Assembly (NCBI RefSeq): GCF_029223525.1
Contig: NZ_JARHTQ010000003.1
Span: forward strand, 186,001 to 250,000
Direction: 5' to 3'
Origin: Streptantibioticus ferralitis
GTDB lineage: Bacteria; Actinomycetota; Actinomycetes; Streptomycetales; Streptomycetaceae
DNA: 64,000 nucleotides
Each line of letters begins with the position of its first letter. Position 1 is the first letter of the stretch. Made by a program: the position numbers and the translations under genes. Shown in pieces: positions 9,382-16,475 of the stretch. The notes below the pieces were generated by a model that saw nothing but the letters and a program-made list of their open reading frames with translations, was not told the DNA's origin and ran no database searches.

Positions 9382-9538
9382 GGCGTCTGCCTCCCTCGGT
9401 GGAGGAACGGATGGCGATATCCGGACAGGGCCATACTCGCCCAGAAGATCCCTTCCCGCCTGATGGGAGGTCCTCGGCCCGGTCATGACCGGGCCGGTGC
9501 GGGGCTGGGCCGACGACTGCGGGGGTCGGGCCAATGAG

Positions 9539-9573
9539 AAAGGCCCGGCCTGTGAGAATCAGGCCGGGCCTTT
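9539..9573 (-). terminator. Terminator left behind by the original tRNA-His
   Basis: A perfect 14-bp stem (9539-9552 with 9560-9573) closes a 7-nt loop and, read leftwards, is followed by a TTTCTCATT stretch. It lies just beyond the left copy of the tRNA-His 3' end. I infer it was the terminator of tRNA-His before the island inserted. Confidence 0.7.
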
Positions 9574-9582
9574 GCTCCGGAA

Positions 9583-9605
9583 GGGTGAGTGACGGGACTC
9601 GAACC
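9583..9605 (-). repeat. Left attachment repeat (attL/R), copy of tRNA-His 3' end
   Basis: These 23 bp are identical to 16287-16309, the T-arm and acceptor 3' strand of the intact tRNA-His. The identity ends at 9606 (T against C). The copy lacks the encoded CCA that follows in the intact gene. A tRNA 3'-end direct repeat on both sides of an integrase-bearing segment is the hallmark of site-specific integration by a tyrosine recombinase. Confidence 0.9.
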
Positions 9606-9708
9606 TGTTTCGTAGTCGTATCGTGACCTGCACCTTCGCTGAGAATGCGGACAAACGCGTGCAGAAGGATGACGGGCGATGACGCCTGATGCCACTGCGC
9701 GGCGTTCG

Positions 9709-9726
9709 GTTTGGCCATGGCCAAAC
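9709..9726. repeat. 18-bp palindrome near left island end
   Basis: GTTTGGCCATGGCCAAAC is a perfect palindrome. A copy differing at one base lies at 16218-16235 near the other end of the island. Their position 104 bp and 52 bp inside the att repeats suggests arm-type binding sites for the recombinase or excisionase; this is inference. Confidence 0.6.
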
Positions 9727-9756
9727 GCTGCCGCCGAGGTGCGCGTGCGTGGGTGA

Positions 9757-9769
9757 GGGGTGAGTGACG
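9757..9769 (-). repeat. Partial second copy of tRNA-His acceptor end
   Basis: GGGGTGAGTGACG is identical to 16286-16298 at the 3' end of tRNA-His, in the same orientation, 150 bp inside the left att repeat. It may be the scar of an earlier or nested insertion at the same tRNA. Confidence 0.5.
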
Positions 9770-9810
9770 AGTCCCCTGGCCGCGTTGCGCCCGCCCTCGT
9801 CCCTGACAAC

Positions 9811-9847
9811 GCGACCGGCTCCGGAGGCGAGCTCCGGAGCCGGTCGC
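9811..9847 (-). terminator. Strong hairpin after the excisionase-like gene
   Basis: A perfect 15-bp GC-rich stem (9811-9825 with 9833-9847) with a 7-nt loop lies 24 bp beyond the stop codon of the leftward excisionase-like gene. Confidence 0.65.
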
Positions 9848-9871
9848 GGGGGTGTGAGATATAGAGATCTG

Positions 9872-10156
9872 TCAGGCTGTCCGCCTTGTCGTGGAGCGAG
9901 GCAGAGGGCACAGGGCACCGAGTGGATGAGGGCCAGCGGCGCGGATGGCGGTCGGACGGATGCCGGGACCGGGCTCCTGGTGGAAAAGGTCGATGATCCG
10001 CCGTAGATCGCTGTCAGTGAAGAGGACGCGGCCCCCGAGCTTGGTGTGCGGCAGCTTCTTGATGTGGCGCCGCAGCCAGGATTCGTCGACCTTGAGCGCG
10101 GCGGCGGCCTCCGGGTAGCTATGGAGGGAGATCGGCATGGGCATGTCTGGGGGCAA
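9872..10156 (-). CDS. Excisionase-like helix-turn-helix protein
   Basis: 94 residues if started at TTG 10156, which has GAGGAG placed 8-9 nt upstream. The longer in-frame GTG at 10198 and an ATG at 10144 are alternatives. The core YPEAAAALKVDESWLRRHI followed by LPHTKLGGRVLFTDSDLRRI is the compact winged-helix DNA-binding fold (helix_turn_helix_17/excisionase type) found in Xis proteins of actinomycete integrative elements. The C-terminal 45 residues are Arg/Pro-rich and unconserved-looking. It lies close to the left att repeat, and I infer that it was the recombination directionality factor of the island. Confidence 0.7.
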   Translation of the reverse strand: MPPDMPMPISLHSYPEAAAALKVDESWLRRHIKKLPHTKLGGRVLFTDSDLRRIIDLFHQEPGPGIRPTAIRAAGPHPLGALCPLPRSTTRRTA

Positions 10157-10279
10157 GGTCAGCTCTCCTCTTTCTGGCGTTGAGGAGAGCTTCTTCACGC
10201 TTCGCGGTTTGGAGAGGCCGCGGAAAGGTGGTAGACGGCTCGGGGAGTCGCGGGCGGTTGGTTCACAACCCTATGCCGG

Positions 10280-10441
10280 GGACTCGCCGAAGAGATCGAA
10301 TCCCTGGTCGCCAAGGGGGCCCAACTCATCGAACAAGATGAAACATGCGCCCTGATGAAAGACCCTGGAGGAAACGAGTTCATCGTGGAACTCGACCTCG
10401 ACTTTCCCGAATCAATGACGACATCTCCCGAAGCCTCTTAA
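10280..10441 (+). pseudogene. C-terminal remnant of a glyoxalase/VOC family gene
   Basis: The frame ending at TAA 10439-10441 reads GLAEEIESLVAKGAQLIEQ, then ALMKDPGGNEFIVEL, which is the last beta-alpha-beta unit of vicinal oxygen chelate proteins (DPxGNEFxVE). No start codon or N-terminal part is present; the frame is closed by TAG at 10232-10234. Codon usage is visibly more AT-rich than the flanking genes (many GAA, AAA and ACA codons), which fits foreign origin. It is a broken remnant inside the island. Confidence 0.55.
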
Positions 10442-10733
10442 TCAGCTTGACGGCAGCAGGCTCAACGACAGGGCTGATGCGTTCTCAGGTGGCGAGATGA
10501 AGGGTCACCGGGTTCGGTGGGACGGGGGCCAACCTCGTCGTGCCCAACCGGGGTCGCGCCCGCCCCGGAGCCAACAGAGAAGTAACCGTGTGCAGCTCGG
10601 CGTCGATGAGTGGCTGGGCCCCACGTGTCACCCGCGGTGGGGCGGCCCCGCTTCTTCAGGAACTGCTCGGTGCGCAGCCGCTGGCCCTCCGCCGCCGTAC
10701 CGTGAGCGCTGATACCGCCGCCGACCTCCTCGT
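10442..10733. other. Gap with no recognisable gene
   Basis: Open frames exist on both strands, but none shows a family motif or ribosome site that I can defend. It lies between the VOC remnant and the regulator gene and is probably degenerate island DNA. Confidence 0.5.
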
Positions 10734-11558
10734 TCATTCGCTGGTCACGGCTACGCCCTCATCGGGCGGTTCGCTGCTGTCGAAGTAGACGACCAGCGTC
10801 TGCTCCGGCTGTTCGGCCAGGTGAAAAGCGGTGTACGCATAATCGATCGCTCCCCGTTGCGGGTGTCGTAGCCGTTTCCGACCGCTGTGCCGGGCCTGCA
10901 CCTCGTACTGCGGCCACCAGTCCCGCACCTCCGGGCTGCCCTCGTTCAGGTCCTCGATCAATCGGGTGTACCGCGGGTCGCCGAAATGGCGTGTCGCTAG
11001 CGTGCGAAGTCGGCCGAGCAGGCCGCGTGCCTCGGTTTCCCAGTCGACTAGAACGTCCCGGGCCACCGGTTCGAGAAACACCCAGCGGACGAAGTTGGCG
11101 GGCCGGTCCGCCTCAGTGATGAGCCTCGGGAACAACTCGTCGGCTGCCTGGTTGTGACTGAGGACGTCATAGTTGCCGCCGATGATGTACGCCGGGTTCG
11201 GCTGGAGCAACAGGGGGACGGCCCCCGCCTCGGCCGTGAGCGGCTCGCGTTCCTCGGCTTCGGCCGCGGGCGCGTGACCGGCAAGCTGGAGAAGATGATC
11301 GTGCTCGTGCCGGTCCAGCCGCAGCGCCGCGGCGAGGGCGTTGAGCACCTGTTCGGAGACGCCGATCTTCCGCCCCTGCTCCAGGTACGTGTACCAGGTG
11401 GCGCTGATCCCGGCCAGCAGTGCCAGTTCCTCTCGGCGAAGTCCCGGAGTCCGACGGCGGCCGGTCCGGGGCAGGCCCACCTCGTCAGGGGTCAGGCGCT
11501 CTCTCCGGCTGCGGAGGAATTGACTCAGCTGACGGCGTTGGTCCGGCTGCGTGGGCAT
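10734..11558 (-). CDS. MmyB-like XRE transcription regulator
   Basis: 274 residues from ATG 11558. The N-terminal HTH (FLRSRRERLTPDEVGLP, then TPGLRREELALLAGISATW and YTYLEQGRKIGVSE) is the hallmark of the actinobacterial MmyB-like family. The remaining 170 residues form the PAS-like ligand-binding domain (NYDVLSHNQAADELFP, FLEPVARDVLVDWE). These regulators characteristically sit back to back with a short-chain dehydrogenase, as here, and typically repress it. A perfect 7-bp inverted repeat at 11578-11599 just upstream of its start is a candidate operator. Frame and codon use are normal, so this pair is probably live cargo of the island. Confidence 0.9.
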   Translation of the reverse strand: MPTQPDQRRQLSQFLRSRRERLTPDEVGLPRTGRRRTPGLRREELALLAGISATWYTYLEQGRKIGVSEQVLNALAAALRLDRHEHDHLLQLAGHAPAAEAEEREPLTAEAGAVPLLLQPNPAYIIGGNYDVLSHNQAADELFPRLITEADRPANFVRWVFLEPVARDVLVDWETEARGLLGRLRTLATRHFGDPRYTRLIEDLNEGSPEVRDWWPQYEVQARHSGRKRLRHPQRGAIDYAYTAFHLAEQPEQTLVVYFDSSEPPDEGVAVTSE

Positions 11559-11577
11559 GACGGGTGGTATCTCCAGT

Positions 11578-11599
11578 TCCAGAATAAATACGTTCTGGA
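11578..11599. promoter_or_regulatory. Inverted repeat, candidate operator of the MmyB-like regulator
   Basis: TCCAGAA and TTCTGGA arms are separated by 8 bp, centred 31 bp upstream of the regulator start and within the intergenic region shared with the divergent SDR. The surrounding AT-rich TAAATACG spacer stands out from the local GC content. Confidence 0.55.
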
Positions 11600-11777
11600 T
11601 GCCAGGCTAACCCCGGTGGAGACTGGTGTGCGAGCACGGGCCGAGGCACTGCCGACGGCCTCACACGGTCACACCGGCACCCGGCCGTCCAGTGCGCAAC
11701 GGCTTCCGCCACGCTCCTCCAGGACCCGCTGCCGCTCGGCACCCCGGCCCCGGTGCCCAGGATGGAGAGGGCAACTC

Positions 11778-12515
11778 ATGTCCGGAATCAAGGGCAAAGT
11801 GGTGGCGATCACGGGAGCCAGCAGCGGCATCGGCGAGGCGACCGCGCTGCTGCTCGCCGAACGCGGCGCGCGACTCGTCCTCGGCGCACGCCGGTCCGAA
11901 CGCCTGGCGGAACTGGTGGCCCGGATCGAGAAGGCAGGCGGCACGGCCGTCCAGATCCGCACCGACGTGATCCGGCGGCACGACCTGCAGGCCCTGGTCG
12001 CGCTGGCCAGTGAGCGCTTCGGCCGACTCGACGTACTCGTCAGCAACGCCGGAGTCGGCACCATCTCGCCTCTCGACGATCTGCGCGTCGACGAGTGGGA
12101 CCACATGGTCGACGTCAACGTGAAGGGCGTCCTGCACGGGATCGGCGCCGCGCTGCCGGTCTTCCGGGCGCAGGGAACCGGCCACTTCATCACCACCGCC
12201 TCCACAGCCGCGTTTCGCATCGTGCCGACCATGGCCGTCTACGCCGGCACCAAGTTCGCGGTCCGGGCCATCTGCGAAGGGCTGCGCCAGGAAGCCGGCG
12301 ACTCCCTGCGGGTGACCACCGTCTCACCTGGTGCGACTGCGACCGACTTCGCCGAGGCGTCAACCAACAGCCAGGTCAGAGCGGAGATCACGAAGATGCG
12401 GGACGACATCGCGATCCCGCCCGACGCGATCGCCCGGGCCATCGCTTTCGCGATCGAACAGCCTGCCGCGGTCGACGTGAACGAGATCGTCGTCCGGCCC
12501 ACCGCCCAGAGCTGA
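11778..12515 (+). CDS. Short-chain dehydrogenase/reductase
   Basis: 245 residues; start ATG 11778 with GGAGAGG 8 nt upstream. Classical SDR features are present: the TGASSGIG cofactor loop (residues 12-19), an Arg in LGARRS suggesting NADP(H), SNAGVG, catalytic Ser in TTASTAAF, and the YAGTK catalytic Tyr-Lys. SPGATATDF follows the active site. It is a cytoplasmic oxidoreductase of unknown substrate. It is divergent from the MmyB-like regulator, whose family usually controls an adjacent SDR. It lies inside the tRNA-His island. Confidence 0.9.
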   Translation: MSGIKGKVVAITGASSGIGEATALLLAERGARLVLGARRSERLAELVARIEKAGGTAVQIRTDVIRRHDLQALVALASERFGRLDVLVSNAGVGTISPLDDLRVDEWDHMVDVNVKGVLHGIGAALPVFRAQGTGHFITTASTAAFRIVPTMAVYAGTKFAVRAICEGLRQEAGDSLRVTTVSPGATATDFAEASTNSQVRAEITKMRDDIAIPPDAIARAIAFAIEQPAAVDVNEIVVRPTAQS

Positions 12516-12690
12516 CCTCCCCCGCCCTTCCGGTGCGGACACCCGCACCCGCCGGGCTGTTCCACGGGTCACATGGCAACACAGGCCCAATGGCCGGTGG
12601 GGTGGGTGGCATGCCTGAGTGGAAACGATGGACGCGACGCCAGATGACCAAGGTTGCTGAGACCGAAGATCGACCTGGAGCCGCGTCCGC

Positions 12691-13023
12691 GTGCAACCTT
12701 CCCTGATCAGCGTCCTCACGCGCCACTTCGAGGATGCAGCCGCGCCATGTCCACCCACGGACCCCTCTGAACTGGCCACGCTGACCGAGGTGTTCGACCG
12801 TCTCCCCGATCCACGCCGGGTACGAGGACGCCGCTACCGGCTCGGCTCACTGCTGGGGCTGTGCCTGGTCGCCGTACTCGGTGGCGCACGGCCGCTTGCG
12901 CAGATCGCCCGCTTCGCGGCCGACGCGGCACCTGAGGTGCACGACCAGCTGGGGCTCAACCGGGCCACCCCGAACGCCTCCACCCTCGGACGCCTGCTGG
13001 CGCGGCTGGACGGGGACCCCTGA
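12691..13023 (+). pseudogene. Truncated ISAs1-type transposase fragment
   Basis: The 110-residue frame from GTG 12691 matches the N-terminal domain of ISAs1/H-repeat transposases: LTEVFDRLPDPRRVRG, YRLGSLLGLCLVAVLGGAR, LAQIARFAADAAPEV and STLGRLLARLDGD. It stops at TGA 13021-13023. Removing one C from the CCCCC run at 13016-13020 would continue the frame for a few residues (DAVALL), so a frameshift precedes loss of the DDE catalytic domain. No full-length IS, terminal inverted repeats or target duplication could be identified. Confidence 0.75.
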
Positions 13024-13252
13024 TGCGGTCGCCTTGCTGACCTGGTCTTTTGCCGACACCTGTACGTTGGCATGCTCTCGGACAGTGTCTCCAGTCATGA
13101 CCGTCTGCTGTGAGCGATGCCGAGCGGTGGGCATCGATCACCGGAACAGCGCCTACCGCTTGACGAAGTGACTTGATCCCTGCGGACCTACTGGGTCAGG
13201 CGGCGACAGGAGCGAGACACTCGCGGCAGGACGCCAACTATTGGGAGGGAAC

Positions 13253-13762
13253 ATGCAGTTCAGCAACGAGGAGCCGCCGTTGCATCCGGTACGGACGGTG
13301 ACATGGGCGCGTACGGTGTTAGGACGGCGCATCGCGGTCCTGGCCAACGAGCCGATAGGTCAGATCGGTTACGCGGCGGCCAGCCTGCCCGATAGGCCGG
13401 AAGAGACGTGGGAGATCCACATTCGCTACCCGCGGGTCGAGGTCAAGACCATCCGGCACCCGTCGTCGGTACGGCCGGGAGTAACGACGGTGGACCTGCT
13501 GAACGACGCGGTCGCTTCTTTCCCTCACGTCCCTGACCTAGTGGCTGAGGCGGAGATTGGGGAATGGCTGACCGCTCAGGCGACCCGTCCCCCTGCGGAG
13601 GTCGAAGAGGTGCCCGAGGCCCTGCTGATTGACGGCACGCCCTTCCGGGGTATGCAGGCCGAGCGTGACGGCGTAACCGCACGCCTGGTGCAGCCGGAGG
13701 CTGGGACAGTCGTCATTGCCGTGGGCGAGTCCCGCGGGGCTGTTCGTCTCGTCTGGGCTTGA
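13253..13762 (+). CDS. Conserved hypothetical protein
   Basis: 169 residues; ATG 13253 is preceded by GGGAGGGA, which decides the start over the upstream TTG. I do not recognise the family. The protein looks like two beta-rich halves (VLANEPIGQIGYAAASL; EIHIRYPRVEVKTIRH; DGVTARLVQPEAGTVVIAVG) without signal peptide, membrane segment or Cys. It lies inside the island between the transposase fragment and the frameshifted secreted-protein gene, whose stop is 60 bp away and convergent. Confidence 0.7.
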   Translation: MQFSNEEPPLHPVRTVTWARTVLGRRIAVLANEPIGQIGYAAASLPDRPEETWEIHIRYPRVEVKTIRHPSSVRPGVTTVDLLNDAVASFPHVPDLVAEAEIGEWLTAQATRPPAEVEEVPEALLIDGTPFRGMQAERDGVTARLVQPEAGTVVIAVGESRGAVRLVWA

Positions 13763-13822
13763 ACAGCACGACGCTGCCGCCCTTGGCACGGTAACCGGAG
13801 GGCGGCAGCGTTTGACGTTGCG

Positions 13823-14271
13823 TTAGTAGATGGTGTCCATGTCGGAGGGGCCTCCGCTGTGGCACACGCCGCCGTCGACCAGGATGGCATAGCTGTTGCC
13901 CGGGATGACCTGGGCGTATGCGGGGCCGGTGCCGCCGCTGTGGAAGGTGAAGGTGGTAGCCCACGAACGGCGTGCGGCCAGGGCGCCTCCCCAGTGCTGC
14001 TGAGAGGTTCCGTACCGCAGTCGCCAGGGATGGTGTTGTTCGGCTTGATGGTCTGCGGGTTGGCTCCGGCCTTGACTGAGTACTCCAGGCCCTGCGCGTC
14101 CTTCTTGATGACGTACCCGTGCGCCTTGGCCACCGCCGGGTCGTAGCCGACGAGGTGCATCGGCACGGTGATGGTCGTGGTGTGCGGCTGAGCTGGCTGG
14201 GCCTGTGCCGAGGTCACTCCAGTTACGGCTAAGCCCAAGGCCCCGGCCGTTACAGCAAGTTGCTTGATCAC
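13823..14271 (-). pseudogene. Frameshifted small secreted protein
   Basis: A GTG start at 14271 has GGAGGGG upstream and encodes a clear Sec signal (MIKQLAVTAGALGLAVTG...AQA). The mature part reads well to NTIPGDCGTE (near 14020). It then continues sensibly only in another frame: SWATTFTFHSGG, AYAQVIPGNSYAILVDGG, then VCHSGGPSDMDTIY ending at TAA 13823-13825. A one-frame shift between about 14020 and 13985 therefore separates the two halves, by mutation or sequencing error. The repaired protein would be a roughly 150-residue exported protein with two Cys; its function is unknown. Confidence 0.65.
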
Positions 14272-14731
14272 GTTCTTTTCCCCTCCGTACAGCCCATCCC
14301 TACGGCGCCCCCTGCGCCTGGTGGGGCGGCACGAGACCGACGTTACGGAGCGGGAGTGCTGACACGAACGTAATTCGTACGTGTGGCCGATTGCTGGTGC
14401 GGTATGGCTTATTCCGGGGTGTTCTGGTGCGGTCTATGCTGTCGGCTCCTGGTGGCGTCCTCAGCCGTTCCGGTATGTGGGCTTGCCCGTGCGGCCGGAC
14501 TACCGTCAGTGGGTACGGCTCGGGTTGGATAGCTCGCTCAGAGTGGTTCAGCGTGTGTTCGACGGCTGACCGGCAGCTGGCGGCAGTGATCCGCTCCGGC
14601 ACCGCCTGGACCACCGGAGTGCCGGAGCGAGATCTATTGGACGAGGCAGAACAGCATCGCCATGAGGGCGACCCACGTGTCGCACGGCGTCCGCCGCCTG
14701 GCCCGCACCGCTGATATGGGCTCTCCGAGCC
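14272..14731. other. Gap with no recognisable gene
   Basis: Open frames on both strands show no family signature. GC content is lower than in the flanking core genes, and the imperfect palindrome around ACGAACGTAATTCGTACGT (near 14362-14380) is the only structured element seen. This is likely decayed island DNA. Confidence 0.5.
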
Positions 14732-14796
14732 GGGGATTTCCTGGGGACTTTTCGGGGACTTTCAGCGCTGTCCCGGGGACTTTCCGGGGACAATCC
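14732..14796. repeat. Phased array of five GGGGA(C/T)TTTC repeats
   Basis: Copies start at 14732 (GGGGATTTC), 14743, 14754, 14775 and 14786, so the spacings are 11, 11, 21 and 11 bp, one or two helical turns apart. Copies 2-4 are GGGGACTTT(T/C); the last is GGGGACAATC. This iteron-like spacing suggests a protein-binding array on one face of the DNA, near the integrase 3' end. Confidence 0.65.
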
Positions 14797-14833
14797 GTCA
14801 GGTAAGCAGGGAAGGCCCTGACAGCGCTGAAAG
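14759..14833. repeat. 14-bp perfect inverted repeat overlapping the iteron array
   Basis: CTTTCAGCGCTGTC at 14759-14772 and its exact complement at 14820-14833 enclose 47 bp that contain two of the GGGGA repeats. Each arm contains the self-complementary core CAGCGCTG. It may be a recombination or regulatory site of the element. Confidence 0.65.
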
Positions 14834-14863
14834 ACTCAAAGCCGCAGGTCAGGGCTCATCCGC

Positions 14864-14942
14864 CTAGCACTCGATGACGTTCACCGCGAGCCCGCCGCGG
14901 GCGGTCTCCTTGTACTTGACGTTCATGTCCGCCCGTGGCCGC
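14864..14942 (-). pseudogene. 3' tail of an L-serine dehydratase gene
   Basis: Read leftwards from 14942 to TAG 14864-14866 the sequence encodes [19 protein letters not shown] followed by IEC, the conserved C-terminus of single-chain L-serine ammonia-lyases in actinomycetes. Nothing upstream (towards the integrase stop at 14969) continues the protein. Only the last 25 codons are present, so it is a captured gene tail, not a working gene. Confidence 0.65.
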
Positions 14943-14968
14943 CCGGCGGAGACGAATCCGCCTCAGCG

Positions 14969-15622
14969 CTAGGCGCTCACCAACCGCAGCCCGCCTCCGG
15001 TTGGCCGGTTGCCGCCCGGCGCGGCCTGAACGGCCCTGCTGATGTCGGTGTCCAGGGAGCGGACCAGGTGGCCGTATCGGTCGATGGTCGTCTGAATCGA
15101 CTCGTGGCCCAGACGGGCCTGGATGGCGGGCAGCGGGATGTTCGCGGCGACCAGCCAGGCCACGTGGGAGTGGCGGAGGTCGTGGATGCGCGGTCGGCGC
15201 GGCAGGCCCGCTCGGACGGCGGCGGCAACCGCGGGCTTCCACTTCCGGTTGTAGAAGTTGTTGTGCCTCCATGCCTTGCCCGTCGGCGTCCGGAAGACGA
15301 AGGCGTCGGGCGGCATCCCGTCCGTCAGGCGCTTGACCATGTCGACCTGTGCGGGTGCCAGGGCCACGAGGCGGCGCGCCCTCTTCGTCTTCGGAGGCCC
15401 GAGGAAGAAGGAGCGCTCCGAGCCCCTGGGAGCCCTCTTCCGCGCCCTCTGGACGCTTGCGGTGGGTGCGGGGCTGCCGAGCCTGAGGTCCTGCGCTTGG
15501 AGGGCCGTTGCCTCGCCCCAGCGCATGCCTGTTCCGACGAGCCAGTCGGCGAGGTCCCGGGCGTCCTCGTCGGTGATGTGACGCCGGATCAGCTGGTACT
15601 CGTCCTGCTCTAGGAAGACGGC
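14969..15622 (-). pseudogene. Tyrosine integrase, N-terminally truncated
   Basis: The frame is open from 15901, but only the part below about 15622 looks like protein. It encodes the catalytic domain of a phage/AICE-type tyrosine recombinase: Arg in TGMRWGEATAL, the HDLRHSH box (HxxR), LGHESIQTT and the nucleophile Tyr in IDRYGHL, ending LRLVSA. The preceding 93 codons are low-complexity and lie antisense to a GT87 gene remnant, so the arm-binding and core-binding domains are lost. The remaining 217 residues keep all catalytic residues but should not recombine alone. It is the integrase expected for insertion at tRNA-His. Confidence 0.75.
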
Positions 15623-15625
15623 GCG

Positions 15626-15850
15626 TCGCCGACGCGCCCGCGTTCGGCTGGCTCCTGCTGTGGCGCGCCCGCGCCCGCGCAGTGGACCACCGCCACGCCC
15701 TACGACGCCGCGCTCACGGCGGTTCTGCTCTTTGTTCTCACCAGCCGGGTCATTAGCCCGCAGTACATGATCTGGCCGGCTGGCCTCGCCGCTGTCTGCC
15801 TCACCGTCGAGCAGACCGTTCACCGGCCGGTGGCCGCCGTGAGCTGCGGC
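15626..15850 (+). pseudogene. Remnant of a GT87 (DUF2029) polyprenol-phosphate mannosyltransferase
   Basis: Plus-strand translation gives VADAPAFGWLLLWRARARA, then, after a one-base shift, TPYDAALTAVLLFVLTSR and VISPQYMIWPAGLAAVCL. This is the penultimate membrane region of actinobacterial GT87 enzymes (the SRVISPQY signature). Start, most membrane segments and the C-terminus are missing, and the frame ends in unrelated sequence at TAG 15905-15907. It abuts the truncated integrase, and the junction is near 15622-15626. Confidence 0.6.
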
Positions 15851-15907
15851 AGACGTGTACTGGACGGAAGAGAAGTCCACGGCGCAGATCCAGACGTTCA
15901 CCCGTAG

Positions 15908-16239
15908 TTACAACCGGGTCGGCGCTGCCTTCGAAGGCCTCATCCACCGAAGATTCCCGTTCAAGAGGATCTGCGGTGTCCGCCCGGAAGGAGTGCGGCG
16001 GCGCAGCAGTTCCGTTGACACGCGAAGCTGCCGAGAGTGCGGGCGAAGCCTAATAGGGTCGCATCTCCGGTGGCTCTGGTCATCCCGTCACTCACCTGTG
16101 AGATCGGCCCCCGAGGGCCATACAGTGGGTGTCGGGTTGTATACGCTGCGAAGGCCCTGGTTTTCGTCGGCGTCGTCCCGCCGTGAGCGGCTCCGATTGT
16201 GGAGTGGTTGGGCCATGGTTTGGCCGTGGCCAAACGGCA
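15908..16239. other. Right end of island, no gene
   Basis: No convincing frame is present. It contains CCCGTCACTCACC at 16084-16096, an exact inverted copy of 13 bases of the tRNA-His acceptor end, and the 18-bp near-palindrome GTTTGGCCGTGGCCAAAC at 16218-16235 matching the one near the left end. Confidence 0.5.
16218..16235. repeat. 18-bp near-palindrome near right island end
   Basis: GTTTGGCCGTGGCCAAAC differs from the left-end palindrome (9709-9726) only at one central base. It lies 52 bp inside the right att repeat. Confidence 0.6.
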
Positions 16240-16281
16240 GACAGGCCCGTGACCTACGTTTCCGCAGGTCACGGGCCTGTC
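16240..16281 (-). terminator. Terminator of tRNA-His
   Basis: A perfect 16-bp stem (16240-16255 with 16266-16281) and 10-nt loop lie directly downstream of the leftward tRNA-His gene. It was brought in with the island, because the older terminator sits at 9539-9573. Confidence 0.75.
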
Positions 16282-16284
16282 TCA

Positions 16285-16361
16285 TGGGGTGAGTGACGGG
16301 ACTCGAACCCGCGGCATCCTGGACCACAACCAGGTGCTCTACCAGCTGAGCTACACCCACC
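16285..16361 (-). tRNA. tRNA-His (anticodon GTG)
   Basis: On the minus strand a full cloverleaf folds from G1 at 16360 (the extra G-1 typical of tRNA-His is 16361). It has a 7-bp acceptor GTGGGTG/CACTCAC with one wobble pair, a D-arm AGCTCAGCTGGTAGAGC, an anticodon arm CCTGG-TTGTGGT-CCAGG giving GTG, and a T-arm GCGGG-TTCGAGT-CCCGT. C73 is followed by an encoded CCA (16285-16287). It is the integration target of the island to its left; adpA-orn lies upstream of it on the same strand. Confidence 0.97.
16287..16309 (-). repeat. Right attachment repeat inside tRNA-His
   Basis: These 23 bp of the T-arm and acceptor end are identical to 9583-9605. Crossover within them kept the tRNA intact. Confidence 0.9.
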
Positions 16362-16475
16362 ATGACCGGCGCTTGACTGCTTCCCGCACCGGCCGAGAAG
16401 AAGCATACAGGGTTTTGGTGGATGCTTGCGCCAGGCTTTTACGGGGCCTTGAGCGCCGACCTCACCCGGCGGACC

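Follow-up and report, generated by a model that had tools for sequence, protein, structure and literature searches.

A 6.7-kb island lies at the tRNA-His gene of Streptantibioticus ferralitis, a member of a small genus of the Streptomyces family that is separate from Streptomyces itself and is represented in our collection by three genomes including the host. Very probably the island is an element that entered by means of a phage-type integrase, whose integrase gene (int) has since been truncated and which is now non-autonomous, with its attachment (att) sites and excisionase gene (xis) retained. We analysed it within a window of 64,000 nucleotides (contig NZ_JARHTQ010000003.1, positions 186,001 to 250,000; coordinates below are those of the window). 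We favour this reading because the island is bounded by exact, unique core repeats at tRNA-His and the empty site, with the native terminator, is seen in a congener (G002); because int groups with phage-type integrases of tRNA-His, has xis nearby and lacks its N-terminal part; and because the motif GTTTGGCC stands at both ends, the arm motif of related elements tracks the N-terminus of their integrases (Int) and the genome holds no other close integrase.

The island is enclosed by a 23-bp direct repeat (GGGTGAGTGACGGGACTCGAACC), whose copies at 9583-9605 and 16287-16309 of the plus strand match each other exactly; no third copy was found in the window at up to three mismatches, and none in 100 dinucleotide-preserving shuffles. 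ARAGORN detected a single tRNA gene in the window, tRNA-His (GTG), at 16285-16360 on the minus strand, and since the right core lies inside this gene it represents its 3' end. The left core is a displaced 3' fragment of tRNA-His in the correct orientation. An earlier note on this DNA had proposed exact 23-bp repeats matching the 3' end of tRNA-His, which the search fully supported.

Two other genomes of the genus, G001 and G002, were available for comparison. In G002, homologues of the left hairpin and of the left flank as far as 9475 run straight into the core and tRNA-His, so that position 9605 abuts 16310, the arrangement the earlier note had asked to look for in relatives. When the window is aligned to G002 with the island removed (9530-9605 joined to 16310-16400), 149 of 164 bases agree. 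The terminator beside tRNA-His in G002 is homologous to the window hairpin at 9539-9573 (-32.0 kcal/mol), which is therefore the native tRNA-His terminator, moved to the far side by the insertion. The gene is now served by an element-borne terminator at 16240-16281 (-44.4 kcal/mol), equivalents of which occur at the right ends of related elements. Both hairpins fold strongly where the earlier note had placed them, and its assignment of the left one to the time before insertion and of the right one to present use agrees with the empty site. In G001 the same tRNA-His is occupied by a different island of approximately 8.6 kb (L028:4400-13050), carrying genes for a ricin-type lectin, an AAA ATPase and a GTPase-like protein. 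No match to int or xis and no left core were found in that island; its terminator next to the tRNA is of the element type, and the native one stands at the opposite end. Its right end is only 71% identical to that of the window island, as against approximately 90% for the shared right flank, and the window right end is closer, at 85-87% identity, to its counterparts in S. shenzhenensis and S. hygroscopicus; separate insertions in G001 and in the host are probable and the simpler reading.

The integrase gene is reduced to an open frame at 14969-15619 on the minus strand, which encodes only the catalytic domain (phrog_1 / PF00589) and aligns to residues 256-471 of its S. hygroscopicus ATCC 21589 relative at 88%. 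This nearest relative is full length and its sister in the tree with full support; its open frame comprises 471 codons including a leader through the tRNA, with the likely start at codon 53. A frameshifted N-terminal half was rejected, as no significant alignment to that half was obtained, and other DNA, including a foreign piece (15633-15801) 74% identical to G000:C36:5423-5590 elsewhere in the host genome, stands in place of the N-terminal part. The fragment has no stop and a ratio of nonsynonymous to synonymous substitution rates (dN/dS) of approximately 0.19, from which the truncation seems recent in relation to the divergence. It lies 666 bp from tRNA-His, compared with approximately 650-830 bp in relatives, in the usual place and orientation. 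Near the left arm, the xis-like gene at 9872-10198 (minus strand; phrog_1840 excisionase at 4e-14, HTH_17) has a homologue near int in related proviruses and is positioned as in Streptomyces sp. McG3, where the left arm and xis are jointly approximately 70% identical to the window. The matches to phrog_1840 and phrog_1/PF00589 thus bear out the xis-like and int-like genes previously proposed between the repeats.

Relatives of int were sought in 395 genomes of the family and in IMG/VR. Those at least 54.5% identical and with a tRNA in view all lie at tRNA-His, except for two at tRNA-SeC, while tRNA-Met is the site of the next three (52-54%) and the more distant relatives occupy tRNA-Ala or -Ser. 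Seventeen IMG/VR contigs with an integrase 56-76% identical all carry a xis homologue, and most are 41-58 kb long with int at one end. The tree places the window int among the tRNA-His integrases, and by these comparisons it belongs to an integrase clade of Streptomyces temperate phages found mostly at tRNA-His. A provirus-like relative in Streptomyces sp. CC53 (L158:8740-8820) has int split over two frames, through either a frameshift or an assembly error. In the host genome no second relative of int was detected at E <= 1e-40, nor was a helper integrase found there. The earlier note described an element that inserted and then lost mobility. The insertion is supported by the empty site of G002, and the loss of mobility we infer because int is without the N-terminal part present in its closest relative and the genome contains no other close homologue. 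The decay implied in that description proved to be concentrated in the integrase, with both att arms and xis retained.

Both ends of the island carry short repeats that resemble integrase arm-type sites. The left arm holds an inverted pair of these putative sites, GTTTGGCCATGGCCAAAC, at 9709-9726, the same place as in the left ends of other tRNA-His elements, and the right arm (16207-16235) has the arrangement GTTGGGCC-ATG-GTTTGGCC with 11-bp spacing, together with an inverted GGCCAAAC, laid out as in relatives. Of the five exact copies of GTTTGGCC in the window, four are at the island ends; 1.5 would be expected in total, and none of 100 shuffles reached five. A search of 200 genomes of the family for the end palindrome gave the two ends of this island and a single further place, next to tRNA-His of another genome; among the 80 loci listed from the named collection it occurs in seven Streptomyces genomes, in six of them beside a tRNA-His core. 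It is thus rare and, among those listed matches, nearly confined in Streptomyces to the ends of tRNA-His elements, a restriction for which we did not prefer to regard it as the operator of a host regulator. The seventh genome, S. aurantiacus JA 4570, has an exact GTTTGGCCATGGCCAAAC at L120:5102-5119 with no tRNA-His core found and a tRNA-Tyr approximately 2.7 kb away. Four matches in IMG/VR were copies of one unrelated sequence and were set aside.

Relatives with a readable right arm share the direct motif pair with 11-bp spacing, while the motif itself varies. Counted as they stand, with kinship ignored, 15 relatives pair arm motif with N-terminus: GTT(T/A/G)GGCC accompanies six integrases with an N-terminus like MATIR.R.RKDG...RW..GGRGG (L153, L158, L213, L218, L219, L183), and GTTCCC accompanies nine that start like MASIVERPKK...QVKWR (L214, L216, L217, L220, L222, L174, L184, L171, L182). 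Four further relatives have other arm motifs. Two integrases of the same clade located at tRNA-SeC, L218 and L219, have GTT(A/T)GGCC, that is, a changed target and an unchanged arm type; as they keep the first N-terminal type together with the first motif, the arm motif appears to follow the N-terminal domain of Int and not the target. A similar variation of arm motifs with the N-terminus of Int has been described for Cluster K mycobacteriophages, which have paired predicted arm sites and a stem-loop between the core and the right arm sites (PMC3203893), and arm binding of tyrosine integrases resides in their N-terminal part (PMC3203893). The co-variation of motif and N-terminus among the relatives lends indirect support to binding of the repeats by the N-terminal domain of Int, and the copies of GTTTGGCC at the island ends are best described as putative arm-type sites of the integrase.

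We propose that the attP of an element with a tyrosine integrase of Streptomyces temperate-phage lineage recombined with a 23-bp core within the tRNA-His 3' end. This insertion rebuilt the 3' end of the gene and brought a new terminator from between the attP core and the right arm, pushing the old 3' end and the native terminator to the far side, where the empty site of G002 identifies them. Later, the 5' part of int would have been lost with other DNA taking its place, and plasmid-type and other pieces would have gathered inside. What remains is probably a non-autonomous island which keeps its cores, the putative GTTTGGCC arm-type sites and xis, and in which int is represented by the catalytic domain. 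Such an island could probably not excise without help, and might still be a substrate for the full-length integrase of an incoming phage with matching arm and core specificity.

On the sequences compared, tRNA-His is an accretion site. Junctions of right end, core and left arm, as expected of tandem elements, were found in S. shenzhenensis, in the Streptomyces metagenome-assembled genome SH_71_13 (G206:C366) and in S. hygroscopicus, where the core at the junction has decayed. The SH_71_13 locus includes an 11.6-kb unit (L156) which has both element ends, lies between two cores and contains no integrase of the family of the window int; it carries a complete-looking Wadjet (JetABCD type 2) system at L156:2394-10731. 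An endonuclease VII gene common to two tandem tRNA-His loci was considered as a hallmark of islands without integrase and rejected, since the 17 related places, spread over 13 genomes, all lay away from tRNA-His cores. The right end of the window island is 79-87% identical to the ends of islands without this integrase, compared with 66% to that of its nearest int relative. It is conceivable, though we hold it rather doubtful, that tRNA-His of Streptomycetaceae hosts a set of integrase-less islands moved by a resident or incoming tRNA-His phage integrase, with defence, biosynthetic or plasmid-derived cargo and with matching GTTTGGCC arms, core and tRNA terminator kept, and that the window island is a member of this set or is becoming one.

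These units also bear on how the island arrived. It could have come without a working integrase, as cargo flanked by matching ends and mobilised by a phage integrase, and have captured its int fragment from a tandem neighbour; units with the same ends and no such integrase exist, such as that in L156, the right end of the window is nearer to theirs than to that of the int relative, and tandem junctions occur in three other Streptomyces. The int fragment is nevertheless in its usual place and orientation relative to tRNA-His, with xis near the left arm, and loss of int in place needs fewer steps, so that we consider this route improbable. Alternatively, the 6.7 kb might be ancestral in the genus and precisely lost in G002, the repeats merely having allowed a deletion. 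Precise excision would likewise leave an empty site and the genus is represented by only three genomes; however, G001 carries other DNA at this place, with a right end 71% identical beside a shared flank at approximately 90%, and the left core, without any function in a tRNA, has stayed exact, which makes an ancestral island decidedly improbable. Least probable of all, to a degree that we regard as very slight, is that the island still excises itself, the catalytic fragment sufficing with host factors or a protein that escaped recognition. In its favour, the island retains its cores, arm motifs and xis, and its catalytic domain is open and conserved; however, in tyrosine integrases the part missing here holds arm binding and much of core binding, and the genome has no other close int homologue at the threshold given above.

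Several points nevertheless weigh against insertion followed by truncation of int as we describe it. The conserved and open int fragment means that the loss may be recent. The empty site is known from one congener only, and ancestral absence and precise loss both fit it. Both the binding of the arm sites and the immobility of the island are deduced from sequence, and the similarities of the right end imply that the ends and int may not be of one history.

Judged by its matches, the interior of the island is composite, with phage-type ends and xis, a plasmid-like block and pieces of other genes. A C-terminal fragment of a glyoxalase-like gene at 10268-10438 (plus strand) matches positions 69-105 of 106 of PF18029, below the Pfam cut-off. 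It is followed by a cargo block (10664-13042) that matches part of a linear plasmid from Streptomyces sp. A144 at 92.1% identity and contains an MmyB-like XRE regulator (10734-11558, minus strand; PF17765, PF13560), an SDR family oxidoreductase (11778-12515, plus strand; PF00106, 7e-49) and a transposase truncated to its N-terminal fragment (12691-13023, plus strand; PF13808); parts of this block also occur in several other Streptomyces plasmids. A 169-aa open reading frame (ORF) at 13253-13762 (plus strand), of unassigned family, had no matches in Pfam, PHROGs, NCBIfam or PADLOC. At 14726-14934 (minus strand) lies a 3' end of sdaA. Two places on G000:C22 of the host genome, separated by 20 kb, are 91-92% identical to it, and since a long sdaA reading frame ends in one of them, the segment resembles an att-type piece belonging to another element. 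The host genome has four such sdaA 3' ends, that in the window and L160, L161 and L163 on G000:C22 near 150, 170 and 275 kb, three of the four with a common arm-like region of GGGGACTTTT repeats. At L163 the open frame of an integrase continues into the sdaA tail, so that another element family seems to target sdaA. The earlier description of the content as mostly gene fragments holds for int, the transposase, the glyoxalase, the sdaA tail and one further piece; xis, the XRE regulator, the SDR gene and the 169-aa ORF are plausibly full-length open frames.

The island resembles the tRNA islands of Islander (PMC4383910) in having a tRNA gene, its displaced 3' fragment in the correct position and the same orientation, a tyrosine integrase gene in the interval and a length of more than 2 kb, and G002 provides the empty site that Islander counts as support and does not require; it differs in that the integrase is a fragment with only the catalytic domain left. 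With the tRNA-His temperate phages of Streptomyces (IMG/VR proviruses L169-L185; L157/L158 of CC53) it shares the integrase clade, a xis homologue near int, the orientation and tRNA-His, which adjoins int wherever the boundary is in view. In contrast to their mostly 41-58 kb it comprises 6.7 kb, and the ORFs compared with PHROGs and Pfam matched only integration and regulation families, with none recognised for phage structure or replication. Its layout of core, paired arm-type repeats and a terminator beside the core, read from sequence alone, recalls the attP modules of mycobacteriophages of Cluster K, L5 and Giles (PMC3203893), in which paired arm sites accompany a core, a stem-loop lies between it and the right arm, and the arm motif varies with the N-terminus of Int, although those have another integrase and another host and the window integrase is broken. 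As in cis-mobilizable elements (CIMEs), which decay with their att sites kept (PMC5704250), and in defective actinomycete integrative and conjugative elements (AICEs; PMC9513070), att sites have outlasted decaying integration genes, and the site is differently occupied or empty in relatives. Unlike in those, xis is kept beside the int fragment, the integrase is of a phage-type lineage with relatives in proviruses, and no transfer gene was found that would indicate descent from an integrative and conjugative or mobilizable element. An AICE remnant was rejected: the Tra protein that characterises AICEs (PMC3218068), of FtsK/SpoIIIE type, had no PF01580 match between C44:195606 and 202286. No Rep was found among the island ORFs compared with Pfam, Rep families not having been sought in six frames.

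A literature search limited in its terms yielded no paper describing a Streptomyces tRNA-His element. The kind of island is nevertheless already known in Streptomyces, where accretion, decay and empty sites of AICEs have been documented in a population (PMC9513070), and the present case is an unusually well resolved one. It offers a before-and-after comparison with an empty site, an occupied site and a probable second occupation, in which the tRNA site was rebuilt including its terminator, and it shows which parts of such an element outlast the integrase. Furthermore, the link between end motif and Int N-terminus, if true, would help to foresee by which phage integrase a stranded island could be mobilised, and would bear on the spread of defence and biosynthetic cargo in Streptomyces.

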